This document shows positions 44,380 through 58,516 of a stretch of 58,912 nucleotides of DNA, in pieces (the first letter of the stretch is position 1; each line of letters begins with the position of its first letter). The translations under genes were made by a program, and so were the position numbers. The stretch is from the NCBI GenBank assembly GCA_021792755.1, contig JAJYUA010000026.1:1-58912 (forward strand). Direction: 5' to 3'. The notes below the pieces were generated by a model. It worked only from the letters and a program-made list of their open reading frames with translations, had not been told where the DNA came from and did not search any database. The DNA comes from Pseudomonadota bacterium. GTDB lineage: Bacteria > Pseudomonadota > Gammaproteobacteria > Steroidobacterales > Steroidobacteraceae.

Positions 44380-45229
44380 GTCCTCGACGGTCCGGCCGGG
44401 GTCGGCCGGGCACCGCCGGCTGCTCGCACGGTTTTTTCTCGACACGCATGTCGAGTACGTCCCGGAGAGAATCGCCTGGCCGGCGCTGACCGAGGCGGAG
44501 CTCGCGCGCCTCACCGGCCTGCCGTTCTGGCAGGAGGCGGTCTCGACCGAGAACGTCACATCCAACACGGTGGCGGCCGCGGCCGACATCGAGCCGGATC
44601 CGCAGGTGCGCGCGGCCATCGCGCTGCAGGGCTTGGAGGAGCAGCGGCATGCGCGGCTGCTCACCGCGCTCACCGCGCACTACGGCATCCCGATCGAGCA
44701 GCCGCCGCGGTTCGCGCCCCGCGCGCTGGAGGACGATTTCCTCTTCGCCGGCTTCGGCGAGTGCTTCGATTCCTTCTTCGCCTTCGGACTGTTCGCCCTG
44801 GCACGCGAATCGGGCTACTTCCCCGCCGGTCTGGTGAGCATCTTCGAGCCGGTGATGGAGGAAGAGGTGCGGCACATCCTGTTCTTCGTCAACTGGGTCG
44901 CATGCCGCCGCTCGCGCCTGCCCTGGTGGAAGCGCCCCGCCTTCCGCGCCCGCTGCGCCCGGATCATTCTCAAGCAGGTCGCATCGCGGGTGAAAACCGC
45001 GCGCGCGCTCGGCAAGGGGCCGCGGCAGGAACCGGCGCACTCGGCCGAGAACTTCACGCTCACCGCCCATCAGGAGCTCGGCGCCGGGGTGACCCTGCAC
45101 CGATTGCTGCAGACGTGCCTGCGGGAAAACGACCGGCGCATGGCCCGCTACGATGCGCGGCTGCAGCGCCCGCGCCTGGTGCCGGGCATCGCCCGCGTCC
45201 TTTACCGGTTGCTTCCCGCAGGCATCTGA
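44354..45229 (+). CDS. Ferritin-like di-iron protein in the hopanoid operon, unassigned
   Basis: The product has 291 residues and no signal peptide. Two E-x-x-H motifs stand in long helices: LQGLEEQRHARLLTALTAHY (about residues 93-112) and IFEPVMEEEVRHILFFVNW (about 165-182). With acidic residues in ENVTSNTVAAAADIEP and GFGECFDSFFAFGLFALARE, this is the pattern of a ferritin-like di-iron four-helix bundle. It starts inside hpnL (26-base overlap) and so is the last gene of hpnIJKL. Enzymes of this fold oxidise, desaturate or hydroxylate lipids and other substrates. A hopanoid-modifying oxygenase is a reasonable guess, but storage or another role is possible. Its end overlaps the convergent regulator gene by 28 bases. 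Confidence 0.8.
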   Translation: MSVIPADIESSTVRPGSAGHRRLLARFFLDTHVEYVPERIAWPALTEAELARLTGLPFWQEAVSTENVTSNTVAAAADIEPDPQVRAAIALQGLEEQRHARLLTALTAHYGIPIEQPPRFAPRALEDDFLFAGFGECFDSFFAFGLFALARESGYFPAGLVSIFEPVMEEEVRHILFFVNWVACRRSRLPWWKRPAFRARCARIILKQVASRVKTARALGKGPRQEPAHSAENFTLTAHQELGAGVTLHRLLQTCLRENDRRMARYDARLQRPRLVPGIARVLYRLLPAGI

Positions 45230-47250
45230 TCGGCGGCGCCGCTGGACGCCTTCAGCGTCCGGTAGACGGTGTTGCGGGATACCCCGAGCGAGCGCGCCGC
45301 CGCCGACACATTGCCGCCGTTGCGCTGCAGCATGGCGGCAACCGCGGCCGCGCGCAGGTCCTTGAGCCTCGCCTGGCACGCAGAAGCCTCGAGCGGGGCC
45401 TGGATGGATGCGCGCGGACCGGGCTCGCCGAGCTCCTCGATGAGGTCCTCCGGCAGCTGCGCCTTGCCGATCGAGCGTGCGCCGCCCGCCATCACGCTCG
45501 CGGTGCGCAACACGTTGGCGAGCTGGCGGATGTTGCCCGGCCAGCCGTAGCCTCGGAACAGGCCGAGCACCTCGGCGGTCAGGGTCAGCCCGCAGGCCGC
45601 CTCGCCCTGCGAGGCGAGGATGCGCCGGATCAGCGCCTCGAGATCCCGGCGCTGCCTGAGCGGCGGCAACCGCACCGCCAGGCCGTTCAAGCGGTAATAC
45701 AGGTCTTCCCGGAACTGCCCCCGCCGCATCATGTCCTTCAGGTCGCGATGCGTGGCGCAGATGACCGCGATATCGACCGCGATCGGCTTGTGCCCGCCCA
45801 GCGGGCGCACGGCGCGCTCCTGCAGCACGCGCAGCAGGCGCGTCTGCAAGGCGAGCGGCATATCGCCGATCTCATCGAGGAACAGCGTGCCGCCGTTGGC
45901 GAGCAGGATCTTGCCGGGATTGCCCCGGCGGCGGGCGCCGGTGAACGCGCCCTCCTCGTAGCCGAACAGCTCCGCCTCGATCAGCGACTCCGGAAGCGAG
46001 GCGCAGTCGACGACGACAAACGGCTGCTGGCGGCGGGCCGACTCGTTGTGCACCGCCTGCGCCAGCACCTCCTTGCCGGTGCCGGTCTCCCCGAGAATGA
46101 GGAGGGGAATGTCGTGAGACTGCACCTTGCGCACCTTGGCGATCACATCGGCCACCACCGGATCGCCGCTGTCGAGATCGGCGAGCGCAGGCCCGCCCTG
46201 CGCAGCGCGCGACGCCTGCGCGGCGCGCGGCGCCTGGGCAGCGGGCAGTGCCTGGGCGCCGTGCGGTGCCTGGGCGGCGCCCGCGGCCGCTTCGCCGGCG
46301 CCTTGCGCGAGCTGCGCCGCACACGCCGCGGCGCCCGCCGCCCAGGCGCGCTCCCCGGGTTGCGCGCGAAAGTCGATCCGCGCCACCACCGGCGTGCCGT
46401 CGCGCAGCTGCAGCCGCAGCAGCTGCTGCTCGCTGCGGCATCCGCCGAGCAGCGCCCCCGCATCGAGTCCGAACAGGGACGAGAGCGTATGCGGCTGCGC
46501 GCCGTGCGTCTCGATCCCGAGTTGCGTGAGGCCGCTCGGATTGGCGGCGAGGAACCTTCCCGCCTCATCGAACGCCGCGATGCACTCGAGGAGCGTGCCC
46601 ATCAGCTCCCGGCGGCTGTGGAAGTGAATGCGCAGAGCCTCGCCGAAGTGATCGACGAACAGGTGGTTCTCGATCATCCGGGTCGACATGCGCACCAGCG
46701 CCAGGGTGTGCGCGTGGTAGCTCTCCTGCGGCCCGGACACATCGAGCGCGCCGATCACCTCGCCGCGCGGGTCGCGTATCGGCGAGCATGAGCAGGTGAG
46801 GAAGCGGTTGACCGCCAGAAAGTGCTCGCCGCCATGCACCAGCGTCGCGCGGCGCTCCGCGAGCGCGGTGCCGATCGCATTGGTCCCCTTGCTGTCCTCC
46901 GACCACAGCACGCCGGGCTTGAGCGCCACCCGCTCGGCCTTCTGCAGGAAATCCGCATCCCCGAGCGAGTGCACGATCGTGCCGCGCTGATCGGTGAGGA
47001 TCACCATGCTGTGGGTGTTGAGAATCTGCTGGTGGAGCATTTCCATCACCGGCAGGGCGTGGCGGTAGAGCGCGTGGTGCTGCTCGACGAGCCTCGCGAG
47101 CTCGCCGCGGCCCACCGCGCCGAAATCCGGCCGCTGCCCCTCGGTAAGCCCCAGGCGGCGCGCCCGCTCGTGCCACAGCGATACCACCTTGTTGCGCTCG
47201 CCCGCCGGTACGGCGGGCGCCGCGCTCTGTGATGCCGATTCGTGCCTCAT
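45202..47250 (-). CDS. Sigma-54-dependent activator, AcoR type
   Basis: The product has 682 residues. An N-terminal GAF-type sensor (about 70-220, [40 protein letters not shown]) is followed by a PAS-like part (about 225-310), a repeat-rich linker (about 320-350), and the AAA+ domain with Walker [12 protein letters not shown], the sigma-54 contact GAFTGA (about 433-438) and Walker [15 protein letters not shown] Fis-type helix-turn-helix ([20 protein letters not shown]) ends it. The ATG at 47250 fits the family. AcoR-type activators sense small metabolites such as acetoin or alcohols. It stands alone next to the hopanoid operon; its targets are unknown, but it could also act on the sigma-54 promoter at 52319. 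Confidence 0.93.
46201..46290. repeat. 18-base tandem repeat inside the activator gene
   Basis: Four copies of an 18-base unit lie in register (46201, 46219, 46237, 46255), each ending in GCCTG, with a fifth degenerate copy to 46290. On the minus strand each unit encodes six residues of the form A-Q-A-x-x-A, making a Gln/Ala-rich linker between sensor and AAA+ domains. Copy number could change by slippage. Confidence 0.8.
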
Positions 47251-50109: not shown

Positions 50110-50553
50110 TCACCGGTACACCAGCGCCACAGTCGAGCCGCTGGCGATCCGAGCCGTCAGGGTCGTCTTGCCCGCGGGGTAACCGTTCTGCTGAAGCAGA
50201 AAGGCCATGAGCTCGAGGTATTGCCGGGCAGTGAGTGAGCCCGGTGCATCCGCCGGCATGTCGACGGACAGGAACTCGAAGATCTGCTGGACCGTGAAGC
50301 CGGCCTTGACCGAGGCGAACTTCCCGCCCGTCAAGGCCGGCCCCACACCGCCCTCGAGGTGCCGTCCATGGCAGACGGCGCAGTGCCGCTCGAACACGGC
50401 GTGACCCTGCTGCGCCTGCGCCGGCGTGTACAGCGCCGGCGGGGCGCCCGCCGCCTCACCGCGCTGCGCGAGCAGCGCGGTGAGCAGGAGCGCGCAAGCG
50501 GTCGCTTGCAGCGTGCGGGTTCCCGCGGATCGCTTACTTGAGCGAGAAGACAT
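50110..50553 (-). CDS. Single-haem cytochrome c, partner of PQQ dehydrogenase
   Basis: The product has 147 residues. A signal peptide (TLQATACALLLTALLAQRGE then AA) precedes one haem motif, CAVCHGRHLEGGVGPALTGG, and a likely Met ligand in SVDMPADAPGSL. This is the pattern of small periplasmic cytochromes encoded with PQQ alcohol dehydrogenases, taking electrons from PQQ. The ATG at 50553 overlaps the end of the dehydrogenase gene by 20 bases, so both are translated from one message. Confidence 0.88.
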   Translation of the reverse strand: MSSRSSKRSAGTRTLQATACALLLTALLAQRGEAAGAPPALYTPAQAQQGHAVFERHCAVCHGRHLEGGVGPALTGGKFASVKAGFTVQQIFEFLSVDMPADAPGSLTARQYLELMAFLLQQNGYPAGKTTLTARIASGSTVALVYR

Positions 50554-52243
50554 AGAGCTCCCCGCCGCGCGGGACATGGGCCACAGCCTTGACCATCTGC
50601 CCGCCCCAGATCGGCACACCGCCGCCATAGCCGGCGAGGATGGCGACGTACTGCCTGTCACCGACGCGGTAGGTCACCGGTGGCGCGATGATGCCCGAGG
50701 CAAGCGTGGGGCTCCTCCACAGCACCCTGCCCGTGCGGGCGTCGAAGGCGAGCAGATGGCCGTTGACGGTGCCGCTGAACACCAGACCGCCGGCCGTGCT
50801 CATCGCGCCGGCATCCCAGGGCAACTTGCTCTCGTGATCCCACACCCGCGTGCCGGTATCGATGTCGAAGGCCTGCAGCGCGCCCCAGTTGTGATCGAGC
50901 GGATCGTGCACCACCTTGAAGGTCTCCCCGAGGTAAGGCAGTCCCGCCTTGTAGAAGCTCGGCGCGCCCTTCATCGTCATGCAGGTGTGAATGGTCGGTA
51001 CGTAGACCATGTGAGTGCGCGGATCGACCGACACCGGCCACCAGTTCTTGCCGCCGAGGAAGCTCGGGCAGGTGAAGACCTGGCGGGTCAACGTGGGCCG
51101 CAGCGCATTGTTGGTATAGGGCAGTCCATCCTTGAAGCCCGCCACCGAGGTCGCATGCGCGAAGCGCACCGCGTAGATCAGCTTGTGGGTGCGCAGGTTG
51201 ATCGCATAGAGCCAGCCATTGCGATCGGCGTGGATGATGGCCTGATACCGCTTGCCGTGATAGGTGAGGCTCGTGATCACCGGCGTATTGACGCCGTCGT
51301 AATCCCAGGAGTCGTGCGGCGTGTACTGGTAGTACCACTTGCGCCGGCCGGTCGCCGGGTTCAGCGCCTCCACCGAGTCCGTATACAGGTTCTTGCCCGG
51401 CCGCAGCGTCGCGAGCCACGGGCCCGGATTGCCGACCCCCCACAGCAGCGTGTTGGTCGAGGCGTCGTACGTGCCGGTGAGCCACGTCGAGCCTCCGCCG
51501 GTCTTGTACATGCCTTTGGGCCAGGTGTTGCCGCCGGGCTGCCCCGGGGCGGGAGTGCTGTAGGTGCGCCAGAGCTCCCGGCCGGTGCGGGCGTCGAGCG
51601 CCTCGACGAAATCACGGGCGCCGTACTCCCCGCCGGAAGTGCCCACGATCACCATGCCCTTCAGCGCAAGCGGCGCCAGCGTCATCGCATAGCCGACGTC
51701 GGCGGGCTCGAGCTGCTTCTGCCACACGACCTTGCCGGTGCGCGCGTTCAGGGCGACGACGTAGTTGTCCAACGTCGCCATGTACACGTTGTCCCCGTAA
51801 AGAGCCACGCCGCGGTTGACCACGTCGCAGCACACGGTTTTGAGGCCGGTATCGGCCAGGTTTTTGGCGTACGTCCACAGCACCTTGCCGGTGACCGCAT
51901 CGAAAGCGATCAGGTGATCCAGGGGCGTGGTGACGAACAGGTAGCGGCCGTTGACGATCGGGCTGCTCTCGAAGCCCTGTTTCATGCCGATGCGATAGCT
52001 CCACGCCAGCGTAAGGCCTGCGACGTTGCGCGTATTGATCTGACGGAACGGCGCGTAGCTGTTGCCGGCGTAGTCGCGGCGGAACATCAGCCAGCCGTTG
52101 TCGGTGGCGGCCTTCGCCAGGCGTGCGCTGGTCACTGCGGGGTAGCCGGCCCCTGCCGATGCGGCAACCGGCGCCAGCGTGGCGGCCAGCGCGATGCCGA
52201 GCCACAAACGGCGCCGCGGATGCGGTGCATGGATGATCGTCAT
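50534..52243 (-). CDS. PQQ-dependent alcohol dehydrogenase, predicted lanthanide type
   Basis: The product has 569 residues. A signal peptide (RLWLGIALAATLAPVAASAG) directs it to the periplasm, where the eight-bladed propeller binds PQQ. Visible marks are the adjacent-Cys disulfide in LKTVCCDVVNRGVALYG, GTSGGEYGARDFVEAL and WGVGNPGPW (metal ligands), and WDYD at residues 313-316, where the second Asp is found in lanthanide-dependent enzymes and replaced by Ala or Ser in calcium ones. It oxidises an alcohol; ethanol-type enzymes (ExaA/PedH) look similar, so the substrate is open. The ATG at 52243 was chosen for its signal peptide. A sigma-54 promoter lies upstream and a cytochrome c gene overlaps downstream. 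Confidence 0.92.
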   Translation of the reverse strand: MTIIHAPHPRRRLWLGIALAATLAPVAASAGAGYPAVTSARLAKAATDNGWLMFRRDYAGNSYAPFRQINTRNVAGLTLAWSYRIGMKQGFESSPIVNGRYLFVTTPLDHLIAFDAVTGKVLWTYAKNLADTGLKTVCCDVVNRGVALYGDNVYMATLDNYVVALNARTGKVVWQKQLEPADVGYAMTLAPLALKGMVIVGTSGGEYGARDFVEALDARTGRELWRTYSTPAPGQPGGNTWPKGMYKTGGGSTWLTGTYDASTNTLLWGVGNPGPWLATLRPGKNLYTDSVEALNPATGRRKWYYQYTPHDSWDYDGVNTPVITSLTYHGKRYQAIIHADRNGWLYAINLRTHKLIYAVRFAHATSVAGFKDGLPYTNNALRPTLTRQVFTCPSFLGGKNWWPVSVDPRTHMVYVPTIHTCMTMKGAPSFYKAGLPYLGETFKVVHDPLDHNWGALQAFDIDTGTRVWDHESKLPWDAGAMSTAGGLVFSGTVNGHLLAFDARTGRVLWRSPTLASGIIAPPVTYRVGDRQYVAILAGYGGGVPIWGGQMVKAVAHVPRGGELYVFSLK

Positions 52244-52318
52244 ACTCGTTGTTCCCCTCTGTTCTAAGGTTGCACGACCGGGCACGGCGTGCGTGCGGCC
52301 CGGGTCGCCCGGTCAGTC

Positions 52319-52334
52319 TGCAAGCCTCGTGCCA
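52319..52334 (-). promoter_or_regulatory. Sigma-54 (-24/-12) promoter
   Basis: Read on the minus strand, TGGCACGAGGCTTGCA matches the RpoN consensus TGGCAC-N5-TTGCA at every specified base. It points toward the PQQ dehydrogenase; the predicted transcript starts near 52308, leaving a leader of about 65 bases. The correct position, strand and the presence of sigma-54 activators in the window support it. Confidence 0.82.
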
Positions 52335-52567
52335 CCGCGATGTCACGGCAGGAGCGAACCGGTCGCGGCCCCTCAATCGTTTCCCATCGCGACGGTCGAC
52401 CCCGAGGCATGAAGCATCACGGCCGTTTGACAGGCACAGGCCGGTGCCCCGCCGCCGCTAGCCTCTCGCCCCGCTCACCGGCTTGCCGACATCCGGGGGG
52501 AACCCGCTCCGGTGAGCGCCGCCGCCGAGCGCGCGGCGCTCGTGCCGCGATCTCTTATGATTTTTCT

Positions 52568-52595
52568 GTTCCGTTTTGAAACGCCCCGCGGAACA
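52568..52595. promoter_or_regulatory. Candidate activator-binding inverted repeat
   Basis: TGTTCCG (52568-52574) and CGGAACA (52589-52595) form a perfect 7-bp inverted repeat with 14 bases between; the palindrome CGTTT-TG-AAACG (52572-52583) overlaps it. It lies about 235 bases upstream of the sigma-54 promoter, a normal distance for an enhancer. The same half-sites occur at 58500-58516. Confidence 0.6.
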
Positions 52596-52692
52596 CCATC
52601 ATGCCGCGGTGGAACGCCTTGGCGTCAGGGAAATCCGAGGCCGCCCCGCCGGCCGCCCCGGGCGAACTGCCGAGACGGCCGCACGGCCTGAA

Positions 52693-53505
52693 TCATTGCG
52701 GCGGCTCGCCCTGGCCGACGAGCTTGTAGGTCCGCCCTGCGACGTATTGGTAGATCGCCTTGAGCTGTCTCGGCGAGAAAAAGCCCGCCCAGGACGGCAT
52801 GCCCTTGGCCTTGATGCCCTCCATCGCGATCTGGGTCATCTGTGCTTCGGTCATCCCATTTCTTACCGCCGTGCGCAGATCGGGCGCGTACTCCGAGCCG
52901 ACCGCATCCTCGCCGTGGCAGCGGAAGCAGTATGAATTGAACAACTCATAGCCGCGGAACACCCTCTTCGTCACGTTGTGCGTGCCGGGCTGGTACACCG
53001 GAAAATCGAGCACGACCTTCTTGCCGTCGACGACATAGGTGTAGGTCTTGTGCACGACGGCGGCCGCGGCCTGCGGCTTGATCGACAGCACCCAGGTGAT
53101 GACCTCATCGAGCTGCAGGGGGCTCAGCTTCGGGTGCGGCGGCATGGGGATCTGTCCCCAGGTGCCGACGTGGCCGAACTTGACGGCATGCATGAGCATC
53201 GCCTTCGCCCCCGGCTGGTGCGCGAAGCGCTTGGCCACCGCCTGAAAGGCCGGCCCGACCACCTTGTGATGCACGGCATGGCAGGAGAAGCAATTGCTGC
53301 CTCGCGCAACCTTCTCCCCCGCAGGCACTTTGGCCACCGCCGCCGTGGCCGGCCCTGCCGCCGCCAAGGCGGACGCGAGCGCCGTGACGCCCAGCAGGAC
53401 CTGGATGATCCGCTGCCGAGTCTGATGCCGGTTGCTGCGAGCGGGAGCGGAAGCTCGGCTGGAGAGGGTGCAACTGGGATGGCTCATGAACTGCATCGCT
53501 GTCAT
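52693..53505 (-). CDS. xoxG: Di-haem cytochrome c, XoxG-like
   Basis: The product has 270 residues from the ATG at 53505. A signal region (RIIQVLLGVTALASALAAAG then PATAA) precedes two cytochrome c domains: GSNCFSCHAVHHKVVGPAF (first haem, with MPPHP as likely Met ligand) and SYCFRCHGEDAVGSEYAPDL (second haem, with MPSW). A cytochrome in this place next to xoxF and xoxJ is expected to be XoxG, the electron acceptor, but that is normally single-haem, so two haems are unusual. Other starts at 53571, 53496 or 53487 are possible; all have weak ribosome sites. Confidence 0.8.
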   Translation of the reverse strand: MTAMQFMSHPSCTLSSRASAPARSNRHQTRQRIIQVLLGVTALASALAAAGPATAAVAKVPAGEKVARGSNCFSCHAVHHKVVGPAFQAVAKRFAHQPGAKAMLMHAVKFGHVGTWGQIPMPPHPKLSPLQLDEVITWVLSIKPQAAAAVVHKTYTYVVDGKKVVLDFPVYQPGTHNVTKRVFRGYELFNSYCFRCHGEDAVGSEYAPDLRTAVRNGMTEAQMTQIAMEGIKAKGMPSWAGFFSPRQLKAIYQYVAGRTYKLVGQGEPPQ

Positions 53506-53551: not shown

Positions 53552-54361
53552 TCAAGGCAGGATGCGGACATTGTAGGCGGTCATGATCCGCTGGATCTGC
53601 GCCTTGTGTGTCCTGATCACCTGATCAAGCTGGTGCTTGAGCGCCGTCTCGCCGGGCGCGACCCCCATCGAGATGAAAAACAGGTAGCGTTCCGGCGCGC
53701 CGAGCGCATCGGTGTCAGGCACCCGCATCATGGTGAGGTTGCGGAAATCCTTCTGGATGAAATAGCCGACCAGCGGCTCCCAGGTGATCAGCACGTCCAC
53801 CTTGCCGTCCTCGACGGCCTGCAAAGGAGCCTTGGGCGAGGCCGTTTCGCTGCCGGCCGTGTTGAAGGGAACCGCCGACAGCACGAGCCCGCGCATCTTC
53901 AGCCCCGCCTCCACCGGCGTGCCGACCTCGAAGCCGATCTTGACGTGGCTGAGGATGGGCGAGTCCATGCCCTCCGAGAGATCGTAGCGCTTGCCCTTCT
54001 TGTAAACGAACACGTAAGTCGAGCCGTAATACGGCTTCGTGAAGGTCTCCTCGTAGTCCCCGTACGGGAGATTCATGATCATGTCGCAGCGGTGCTTGTC
54101 GAGGTTCAGCGCCAGAAAGTTCTCGAACCCGCCCTTCTGGCGGTAGCTCGACCACACGTACTGCACGGGACGCCCGAGCGCGTGCCCGACCAGCTGCGCC
54201 ACCTTGTTCTCGAAGCCCTGGCCGAGCTTATTGGAATACGGCATGTAGTTGGGATCGGCGCACACCTTGAGCGGCTTGGCGAACGCCGCGTGCGCATAGC
54301 CGCCCACGAGACAGGCCACCGCCAGACCCCAAACCCACCCCGTGATCGTTTTTTTCCTCAT
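53552..54361 (-). CDS. xoxJ: XoxJ/MxaJ periplasmic binding-like protein
   Basis: The product has 269 residues. A signal peptide (ITGWVWGLAVACLVGGYAHA) is followed by a bacterial solute-binding domain: PLKVCADPNYMPYSNKLGQG, CDMIMNLPYGDYEETFTKPY and GKVDVLITWEPLVGYFIQKD. These are recurring features of MxaJ/XoxJ proteins, which are thought to help activate the methanol dehydrogenase in the periplasm. The ATG at 54361 has GGAGGGG upstream. It lies 187 bases after xoxF, with a terminator-like hairpin between, and before the cytochrome gene. Confidence 0.9.
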   Translation of the reverse strand: MRKKTITGWVWGLAVACLVGGYAHAAFAKPLKVCADPNYMPYSNKLGQGFENKVAQLVGHALGRPVQYVWSSYRQKGGFENFLALNLDKHRCDMIMNLPYGDYEETFTKPYYGSTYVFVYKKGKRYDLSEGMDSPILSHVKIGFEVGTPVEAGLKMRGLVLSAVPFNTAGSETASPKAPLQAVEDGKVDVLITWEPLVGYFIQKDFRNLTMMRVPDTDALGAPERYLFFISMGVAPGETALKHQLDQVIRTHKAQIQRIMTAYNVRILP

Positions 54362-54548: not shown

Positions 54549-56390
54549 TCAGGCGCGCGGCAGCGCGAAGACCATCAGCGTTCCGCCGAGCTGCGTGTAG
54601 TTGTGCAGATTGGCAACCAGACCCACTGCGCCGAGCCCGGCGGTGGACTTGTGCAGGTCGTTGGTCATGCCGATGGCCGCCCAGCCTCCGACCCCGCTCA
54701 GCACGGCGACATACTGGCGGCCGTCATGCATGTAGGTGATCGGGTTGCCGATGATCCCCGAGGGGCAATGGAAGCTGTAGAGGATCTTGCCGGTGTGCAC
54801 GTCGACCGCGCGGAAATCCCCCTTGAGCGTGCCGTAGAACGCCAGGCCGCCGGCGGTCGTGAGCGCCCCGCCCCAGTCCTGGAACTCGTCGTGGATCTGC
54901 CACGCGGTCTTGCCGGTCTGCGGGCTGATCGCGATGAACCGTCCGCGGTAGCCCCCCGGGCCGGGCAGCATGTTGACGATCGCCCCGACGAACGGGAAGC
55001 CCGCCTTGTACTTCACGGCAAACGCCTGGTAGTCCATGCACAGGTGATTGAGCGGCGCATAGATGAGGCCGGTCTGCGGATCATACGACACCGGCTGCTC
55101 GTCCTTGTCGCCCTGCGCGGCCGGGCAGATGCCCTTCACGTTGACACCCGCTTTCGTCATGTACTTCGGGTCGACGATGGGCTTGCCCTGGGCGATGCTC
55201 CAGCGGGAGGCCCAGTTCACCGACGGATCGTACTTCTCGACCAGCAGAGGCTTGCCGGTGACCCGATTCAGCACGAACATGAACCCGTTGCGATCGAAGT
55301 GCGCGAGCGCGGGGATCGTGTGGCCGTCGACGTGGTCATTGAACAGGATCATCCCGTTGACACCGTCGAAGTCCCAGCCGTCGTGCGGGGTCATCTGAAG
55401 CACCCACTTTGCCTCGCCGGTTTGCAGGTTACGGGCGAAGATGGTCATGGACCAGCGGTTCAGGCCCGGCCGCTGCGAGGGATTCCAGGTGCCCGGATTG
55501 CCGCTGCCGTAGTAGATGAGGTCGAGCTTCGGGTCGTAGGAATACCAGCCCCACGTCGTTCCGCCGCCCTCTTTCCACTCCGTGCCCCGCCAGGTCTTGA
55601 GGCTGGAATCGACGCCCACCGGCTTTCCGGTGGCGCCATTGATGGTGGTGCGCGGGTTGAACAGCAGCTGGTTGTCCGGCCCCTCGCTATAGGCGCGCCA
55701 CATCATCTTGCCCGTTGCGGCATTGAGCGCGGTGAGATAGCCACGCACGCCGAACTCACCGCCCGAGACGCCCACCAGCACCACGTCGCCGAACACCTGG
55801 GGCGCGGCGGTAATCGTCTGGCCGTCCCTCGGATAGGCGTTCTTGAAGCTCCACATCACGTGGCCGTTCGCGGCATTGAGCGCGTAGACCATGCCGTCCA
55901 ATGCCGTCATGTAGACCATGCCGTCGCGATAGCTCACGCCGCGGTTGACCACGTCGCAGCAGGCGACCGGCGGTGCATTGGCGTCCGGCGGCGGCGTGAA
56001 CTCCCACAGCACCCGGTGGTTCTTATCGCTCAGGTCGACCGCGTACACGTGATTCGGGTACGGGGTCTCGAAGTACATCCTGTTGTTGATGACCAGCGGC
56101 TGACCTTCGTGGCCGCGCAGCACGCCCGTGGACATGGTCCAGGCGACCTGCAGCTTGTGCGCATTGCCCGTATTGATCTGTCTGAGGTCGCTGTAACGCC
56201 AGTTGTAATCGTTACCCCCGACCTTGGTCCAGTTCGCCCCGGTGGGACCGAGGACATGGGCCTGGACCGGTTTCGAGAGGGAGCAGGAGTAAAGGCCGGC
56301 GGTGAGCAGCGCGGCGGCGGCGCCCGTGAGCAACCATCGCCATTTGCGCCGATCCGCCCCCCCTGGCCTGCGATCAGTTTGCGTATACAC
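54549..56390 (-). CDS. xoxF: Lanthanide-dependent methanol dehydrogenase XoxF
   Basis: The product has 613 residues, a periplasmic PQQ dehydrogenase oxidising methanol. STGVLRGHEGQPLVINNRMY, the disulfide in PPVACCDVVNRGVSYRDG, GVSGGEFGVRGYLTALNAAT and YYGSGNPGTWNPSQRPGLNR are methanol-dehydrogenase landmarks. WDFD at residues 339-342 has the second Asp that coordinates lanthanide in XoxF. The N-terminus is long (about 44 residues to VQAH) and contains LYSC, so a lipid anchor is possible but the motif is poor. The GTG start at 56390 has AGGAG nine bases upstream. xoxJ and a cytochrome follow; gfa and frmA lie upstream. Confidence 0.94.
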   Translation of the reverse strand: MYTQTDRRPGGADRRKWRWLLTGAAAALLTAGLYSCSLSKPVQAHVLGPTGANWTKVGGNDYNWRYSDLRQINTGNAHKLQVAWTMSTGVLRGHEGQPLVINNRMYFETPYPNHVYAVDLSDKNHRVLWEFTPPPDANAPPVACCDVVNRGVSYRDGMVYMTALDGMVYALNAANGHVMWSFKNAYPRDGQTITAAPQVFGDVVLVGVSGGEFGVRGYLTALNAATGKMMWRAYSEGPDNQLLFNPRTTINGATGKPVGVDSSLKTWRGTEWKEGGGTTWGWYSYDPKLDLIYYGSGNPGTWNPSQRPGLNRWSMTIFARNLQTGEAKWVLQMTPHDGWDFDGVNGMILFNDHVDGHTIPALAHFDRNGFMFVLNRVTGKPLLVEKYDPSVNWASRWSIAQGKPIVDPKYMTKAGVNVKGICPAAQGDKDEQPVSYDPQTGLIYAPLNHLCMDYQAFAVKYKAGFPFVGAIVNMLPGPGGYRGRFIAISPQTGKTAWQIHDEFQDWGGALTTAGGLAFYGTLKGDFRAVDVHTGKILYSFHCPSGIIGNPITYMHDGRQYVAVLSGVGGWAAIGMTNDLHKSTAGLGAVGLVANLHNYTQLGGTLMVFALPRA

Positions 56391-58499: not shown

Positions 58500-58516
58500 T
58501 GTCCCGATTCGGAACA
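58500..58516. promoter_or_regulatory. Inverted repeat between frmA and the activator gene
   Basis: TGTCCCG-ATT-CGGAACA is a near-perfect inverted repeat (one mismatch). Its half-sites match those at 52568-52595 (TGTTCCG and CGGAACA), but with 3 instead of 14 bases between, a difference of 11, one helical turn. It may bind the activator encoded at 58613, allowing self-control and control of frmA. Confidence 0.55.

Follow-up and report, generated by a model that had tools for sequence, protein, structure and literature searches.

We identified a sigma-54 promoter, an upstream palindrome and the gene of an AcoR-type activator around a lanthanide-type PQQ alcohol dehydrogenase gene in a 58,912-nt stretch of DNA (the window, taken at its full length). 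These elements, their conservation and co-occurrence among relatives, together with a promoter and palindrome of similar kind at exaC, are what was observed. From the sequences we propose, with a probability of roughly 0.8, that the dehydrogenase gene belongs to an alcohol- or aldehyde-induced sigma-54 module in which the AcoR-type protein would act from a 17-bp site through DNA looping. Counted against the module are the weak palindrome of the window, with two departures, and the lack of a palindrome in 4 of 63 promoter-bearing loci. Numbers beginning with G and L refer to genomes and loci of our surveys, G000 being the genome of the window; feature coordinates are collected in Table 1.

The dehydrogenase and its gene neighbourhood

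The product of the dehydrogenase gene (569 aa) scores above the NCBIfam cut-off for methanol/ethanol-family PQQ dehydrogenases (TIGR03075), and the solved structure that it matches best is 6zcw, a quinoprotein ethanol dehydrogenase that we take to be PedH of Pseudomonas putida. An extra Asp two residues past the catalytic Asp is the mark of lanthanide-dependent PQQ alcohol dehydrogenases of the PedH/ExaF type. The original prediction had called the enzyme lanthanide-type, and its sequence agrees, with the Asp pair found at D314 and D316 of a WDYDGVN motif. The pair is invariant across 9 aligned sequences, while in the 80 named loci described below the motif is partly present by construction of the search.

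The genes upstream on the same strand include a xox cluster as well as adhC and gfa genes for formaldehyde (NCBIfam). The two neighbouring lanthanide-type enzymes in the window, XoxF-type and PedH-like, probably have different promoters: no strict -24/-12 element was found at the XoxF-type gene, the only strict one in the window being that at 52319. At one related locus, in Paraburkholderia xenovorans LB400 (L127:7780-9012), the dehydrogenase gene is followed by one that encodes a binding-protein-like domain (a weak match, below cut-off) fused to a cytochrome c.

Table 1. Coordinates of the features in the window and of AAA+-less regulators at related loci
Feature	Position	Strand	Basis or remark
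AcoR-type enhancer-binding protein: GAF, AAA+ sigma-54 interaction domain with GAFTGA, Fis HTH	45202..47250	-	Pfam and motif
Small cytochrome c; gene start overlaps dehydrogenase gene end	50110..50553	-	Cytochrome_CBB3; start codon picked by reading the sequence
PQQ alcohol dehydrogenase, PedH-like, lanthanide-type WDYDGVN (D314, D316)	50534..52243	-	TIGR03075 above cut-off
Sigma-54 (-24/-12) promoter, TGGCACG-AGGC-TTGCA (TGGCACGAGGCTTGCA)	52319..52334	-	exact consensus match and conservation
Probable upstream activating site, 17 bp, CGTTTC-AAAAC-GGAACA, TGTTCC-N5-GGAACA type	52567..52583	-	two departures from the palindrome
Inverted repeat TGTTCCG-N15-CGGAACA	52567..52595	.	233 bases upstream of the promoter
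Two-domain cytochrome c of the xox cluster, upstream neighbour	52693..53490	-	Pfam
MoxJ/XoxJ-like binding protein, upstream neighbour	53552..54361	-	SBP_bac_3; TIGR03871 192.7, below cut-off 212.15
XoxF-type dehydrogenase, upstream neighbour, second lanthanide-type enzyme	54549..56390	-	best solved match 6oc5 XoxF
GAF and Fis HTH regulators without AAA+ near PQQ dehydrogenases	L097:3531-4556, L099:4367-5365, L100:4619-5998, L104:1530-2804

The -24/-12 promoter and its conservation

As originally predicted, the minus strand ahead of the dehydrogenase gene carries an RpoN promoter in which every specified base is matched: TGGCACGAGGCTTGCA has 0 mismatches to TGGCACG-N4-TTGCW at 52319-52334 and is the sole exact match to this pattern in a scan of the window. 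It shows the GG at -24 and the GC at -12, at fixed spacing and with consensus flanks, that are expected of a sigma-54 promoter. Weaker matches with up to 2 mismatches are not enriched in the window (5 versus 10.7 expected), and the slightly wider pattern TGGCAYG-N4-TTGCW has 9 matches in the 3.76-Mb genome, with 1 for the reversed control pattern. The ATG of the dehydrogenase gene lies at 52243, which leaves a gap of 75 bases to the promoter; a transcript beginning about 12 bases past the -12 GC would have roughly 65 bases before the ATG, in line with the figure of 65 bases in the original prediction. RpoN is encoded in the same genome (PF04552, E 1.5e-67, G000:C17).

Among the 58 genomes of the genus survey, 12, including that of the window, carry the dehydrogenase at E 1e-150 or better, and a contig-end piece of the gene from G018 provides a 13th locus. 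The -24/-12 element is found in 13/13 of these loci (own included), beginning 89-112 bases before the aligned start. No plasmid relatives of the upstream region were found.

The survey of named genomes covered the best 80 of 229 relatives, with related genomes treated as separate loci and with 11 of the 80 representing the same DNA as genus loci. Our first, stricter promoter pattern is present in 54 of these 80; it barred G at the last base and so missed nine Burkholderiales loci. With the last base free, 63 of the best 80 match, against a background of 0.0066 per search window and 0/80 for the reversed pattern, and that base was freed after viewing the alignment of those Burkholderiales loci, which makes 63 a post-hoc figure; the original count is 54. 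The 63 promoter-bearing loci consist of 12 MAG loci (L077-L088), Mangrovitalea (L095) and 50 loci that are Burkholderiales by title. Of the other 17, L155 is represented by just 10 upstream bases, and three are further MAGs (L151-L153). The genera among the remaining 13 loci are Acetobacter, Gluconacetobacter, Acidomonas, Lichenicoccus, Acidocella, Rhodanobacter and Oleiagrimonas; the rest are two Acetobacteraceae, a MAG of the Rhodospirillales, an unplaced MAG of the proteobacteria and a record from Verrucomicrobia. A still looser pattern matches in 5 of the 26 loci lacking the first pattern, where 0.09 is expected per locus; the match in L090 looks plausible as a promoter, and the label "without promoter" may be too strict for this locus. 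On a tree labelled by the first pattern, the promoter state changes 5 times. Judged from these alignments and counts, the sigma-54 promoter before the PedH-like dehydrogenase gene looks real and evolutionarily conserved.

The upstream repeat and a candidate activating site

The original prediction also described a TGTTCCG inverted repeat with a 14-base spacer about 235 bases upstream as the enhancer. The distance holds, at 233 bases from the promoter, while the spacer is in fact 15 bases. Repeats of the form TGTTCC-N15..19-GGAACA occur as a single copy in the genome, at 52567-52595. By simple arithmetic, a stretch of 450 bp should hold about 0.8 inverted repeats of 7 bp when any spacer from 3 to 30 is allowed, so that the long repeat alone is not beyond chance. 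It is present in G000 and G003 and absent from the other 7 of the 9 loci scanned, and we therefore rejected it as a general enhancer; it may matter in G000 and G003 themselves. The alignment of related loci that had been proposed as a check supports the -24/-12 element, kept in all 13 genus loci, but not the long repeat, kept in 2 of 9.

Further upstream, the genus loci share a site of 17 bp that ends in GGAACA or GGAACG. From this comparison, the conserved element in the window is taken to be the inner 17-mer of the repeat, CGTTTCAAAACGGAACA, a putative site of the TGTTCC-N5-GGAACA type. The palindrome is perfect in G020, G059 and G023, has 1-2 departures in nine other loci including the window, and has three in G003. 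Sigma-54 control from a distant site, as proposed earlier, finds good support in this comparison, with a conserved promoter, an upstream palindrome and an AcoR-type gene in the window, but the element that is conserved differs from the 7+7 repeat with a gap of 14 bases drawn there.

Among the named loci with the promoter, 59 of the 63 carry the palindrome TGYNNC-N5-GNNRCA in the 400 bp preceding it (shuffles: mean 4.3, maximum 10), numbers that are descriptive because the pattern was shaped on these related loci. Where these palindromes are paired, they are commonly 31-32 or 23 bases apart. The 17-bp site of the window does not fit this pattern, and in L077 and L078 the match to it differs from their TGTTCC site. 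A second class of palindrome, the perfect TGTTGC-N5-GCAACA, occurs in the activating-site region of L082, L087, L105, L129 and L142.

The candidate AcoR-type activator and alternative regulators

The activator encoded in the window combines a GAF sensor, an AAA+ domain with GAFTGA and a Fis-type HTH, which is the AcoR/DhaR-like architecture. Several of its relatives are labelled acetoin operon activator in their source records, and among solved structures the DhaR sensor matches weakly (E 2.8e-7). Two unrelated genes separate it from the dehydrogenase gene. In a set of 40 genomes, the activator has matches at 1e-100 in 13, some with an internal stop; all 9 dehydrogenase genomes of this set (8 full, G018 partial) have a relative of it, and G005, G006, G009 and G013 have a match without a dehydrogenase at that search. 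Activator and dehydrogenase share a contig in 7 of the 9 genomes; in G024 the activator match adjoins a second dehydrogenase fragment, and in G018 it is on another contig. In the survey of named genomes, the flank examined contains a GAF relative at 50% identity or above in 38/63 promoter-bearing versus 0/17 promoter-less loci, and any GAF relative in 42/63 versus 8/17. The recognition helix is nearly identical in the two Burkholderiales activators compared. On these sequence grounds, the AcoR-type protein is the likely activator of the promoter.

It is unlikely, though it is the strongest of the alternatives, that the promoter is sigma-54-dependent and answers to another enhancer-binding protein, for example the AcoR-like one at the exaC locus. 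Such proteins are available, as the genome has 14 matches to sigma-54 interaction domains, ten of them strong (nine besides the window activator), including one at G000:C41:155600-155989, upstream of the exaC locus; moreover, 21 of the 63 promoter-bearing loci, some of them short, have no GAF relative in the flank examined. Against this stand the relatives of the window activator, present in 9/9 dehydrogenase genomes among the 40 and sharing a contig with the dehydrogenase in 7, and the different recognition helix of the second AcoR-like activator by the exaC locus, seen in fragments from L166 and L167. Control by LuxR-type regulators has published precedents (PMC6115532) but is very improbable here: 0 of the 15 LuxR-type HTH (GerE) matches in the genome are on the contig of the window, which itself encodes an AAA+ activator of a kind often near the dehydrogenase relatives. 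That the -24/-12 match is fortuitous, with transcription of the gene coming from a sigma-70 promoter or the xox operon, is hardly credible, for although the gene follows the xox genes on their own strand and such 16-mers occur 9 times in the genome, the promoter is kept at a similar start-codon distance in 13/13 genus loci and is found (by the post-hoc pattern) in 63 of the best 80 of 229 relatives, and a search for a sigma-70-like promoter gave none in 52200-52750, which is weak evidence with only 0.1 expected by chance.

In four of the 17 promoter-less loci (L097, L099, L100 and L104), an AcoR-like regulator with GAF and Fis HTH and without the AAA+ domain is encoded near the dehydrogenase, about 3 kb from it in the last of these; as a lead, these AAA+-less regulators fit a loss of sigma-54 dependence. 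A wider scenario would have a conserved one-component sigma-54 switch governing one clade of lanthanide-type PQQ dehydrogenases in beta- and gammaproteobacteria, rewired in the promoter-less Acetobacteraceae to an AAA+-less regulator with the same kind of sensor and an ordinary promoter. We regard this scenario as doubtful, and slightly lowered its odds because four other promoter-less loci (L093, L094, L098 and L153) keep an AAA+ activator, their GAF relative of 39-40% identity being accompanied by the AAA+ domain. It would be a candidate for the joint loss, in nature, of the ATPase domain of a sigma-54 activator and its promoter.

Proposed mechanism and comparison with known systems

In the proposed module, the PedH-like dehydrogenase and the small cytochrome c would be read as an operon from the sigma-54 promoter at 52319-52334, where RpoN RNA polymerase would wait as a closed complex. 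The GAF domain of the AcoR-type protein would take up a small effector, with the alcohol substrate or its aldehyde as the likeliest candidate, and the activated protein would bind the 17-bp site about 233 bases upstream; the DNA would then loop, and the GAFTGA loop of the AAA+ domain would open the promoter. The switch itself would not be lanthanide-sensing. If this is true, many beta- and gammaproteobacteria switch the enzyme by its alcohol and handle metal supply elsewhere, and the module offers a testable activator, site and regulon.

Rare-earth control of lanthanide-type alcohol dehydrogenases is described mainly via two-component systems (PMC11845868, PMC6115532). The PedS2/PedR2 rare-earth switch of Pseudomonas putida resembles the proposed module in controlling a PedH-type enzyme and differs in being two-component and LuxR-type, as described in PMC6115532 and PMC12997753; the same papers call the role of a specific sigma factor for pedE unknown. 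The parts of the module have precedents in Azospirillum exaA, the predicted Ralstonia AcoR-exaC pair and BmoR, and an arrangement of this kind is known from other alcohol genes. The exaA gene of Azospirillum brasilense Sp7 (Singh 2017, as cited in PMC6115532 and PMC12826043) is likewise a PQQ alcohol dehydrogenase gene under sigma-54, but its partner is a LuxR-type response regulator, whereas the window encodes a GAF/AAA+ activator. In Ralstonia solanacearum, an AcoR-type activator and an RpoN promoter, the same combination as here, are predicted for exaC, and rpoN1 is needed for growth on ethanol (PMC4676750); however, an aldehyde dehydrogenase is concerned there, and PQQ is absent from the main text of that paper. 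BmoR of Thauera butanivorans is an alcohol-responsive sigma-54 activator with a distant site, its activating sequence lying 193 bp upstream of the -24/-12 element (PMC8899819), but its target is an alkane monooxygenase promoter. Gene maps of methanol dehydrogenases also show a GAF-modulated sigma-54 regulator near such genes, but as a map label only, without promoter or target, according to a figure legend of PMC11845868. A bug-symbiosis region of Burkholderiaceae contains a sigma-54 Fis regulator and PQQ genes (PMC9088363). In the open-licence literature, we found no publication that connects an AcoR-type activator with a lanthanide-type PQQ dehydrogenase. The different control logic of which the original prediction had spoken is new in part only: sigma-54 control of a PQQ alcohol dehydrogenase as such is already published for Azospirillum exaA (PMC6115532).

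exaC and other candidate members of the regulon

A divergent aldehyde dehydrogenase gene, recognized by eye, has its own -24/-12 element in G008, G024, G020 and G023, and neighbour genes in L086 (the same DNA as G059), L118 and L127 (Paraburkholderia xenovorans LB400) score above the NCBIfam exaC cut-off. A search with the G023 protein against six chosen genomes (G000, G003, G022, G014, G018 and G006) gave one exaC-like relative of 84-89% identity in each, located on a contig other than that of the dehydrogenase in the first five. In 6/6 genomes, the exaC-like gene has a -24/-12 element at -50 to -56 and, upstream, a TGTTCC-like palindrome that departs no more than once from a loosened pattern. 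These genes would be driven by the same or a sister activator, so that the steps from alcohol to aldehyde to acid would be induced together.

Another palindrome, TGTTCCGAATCGGGACA, lies at 58500-58516 of the window, 121 bases before adhC. It is identical in 10 of the 58 genus genomes, own included, and in 7 of those 10 it is placed 121-133 bases (once 226) before adhC. We did not adopt it as part of the same regulon because no strict -24/-12 element accompanies it and because genomes that lack the dehydrogenase at the chosen cut-off carry it too.

At the exaC loci, a second -24/-12 element, without a palindrome, was seen further upstream of exaC in 5/5 loci (L163-L167), and at four of the five it precedes a frame starting MRLHSISP. 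This frame is porin-like by Pfam in 1 of the 3 scanned, and a TonB receptor comes next in 2/2 scanned; it is possible that it represents an uptake gene of the same regulon.
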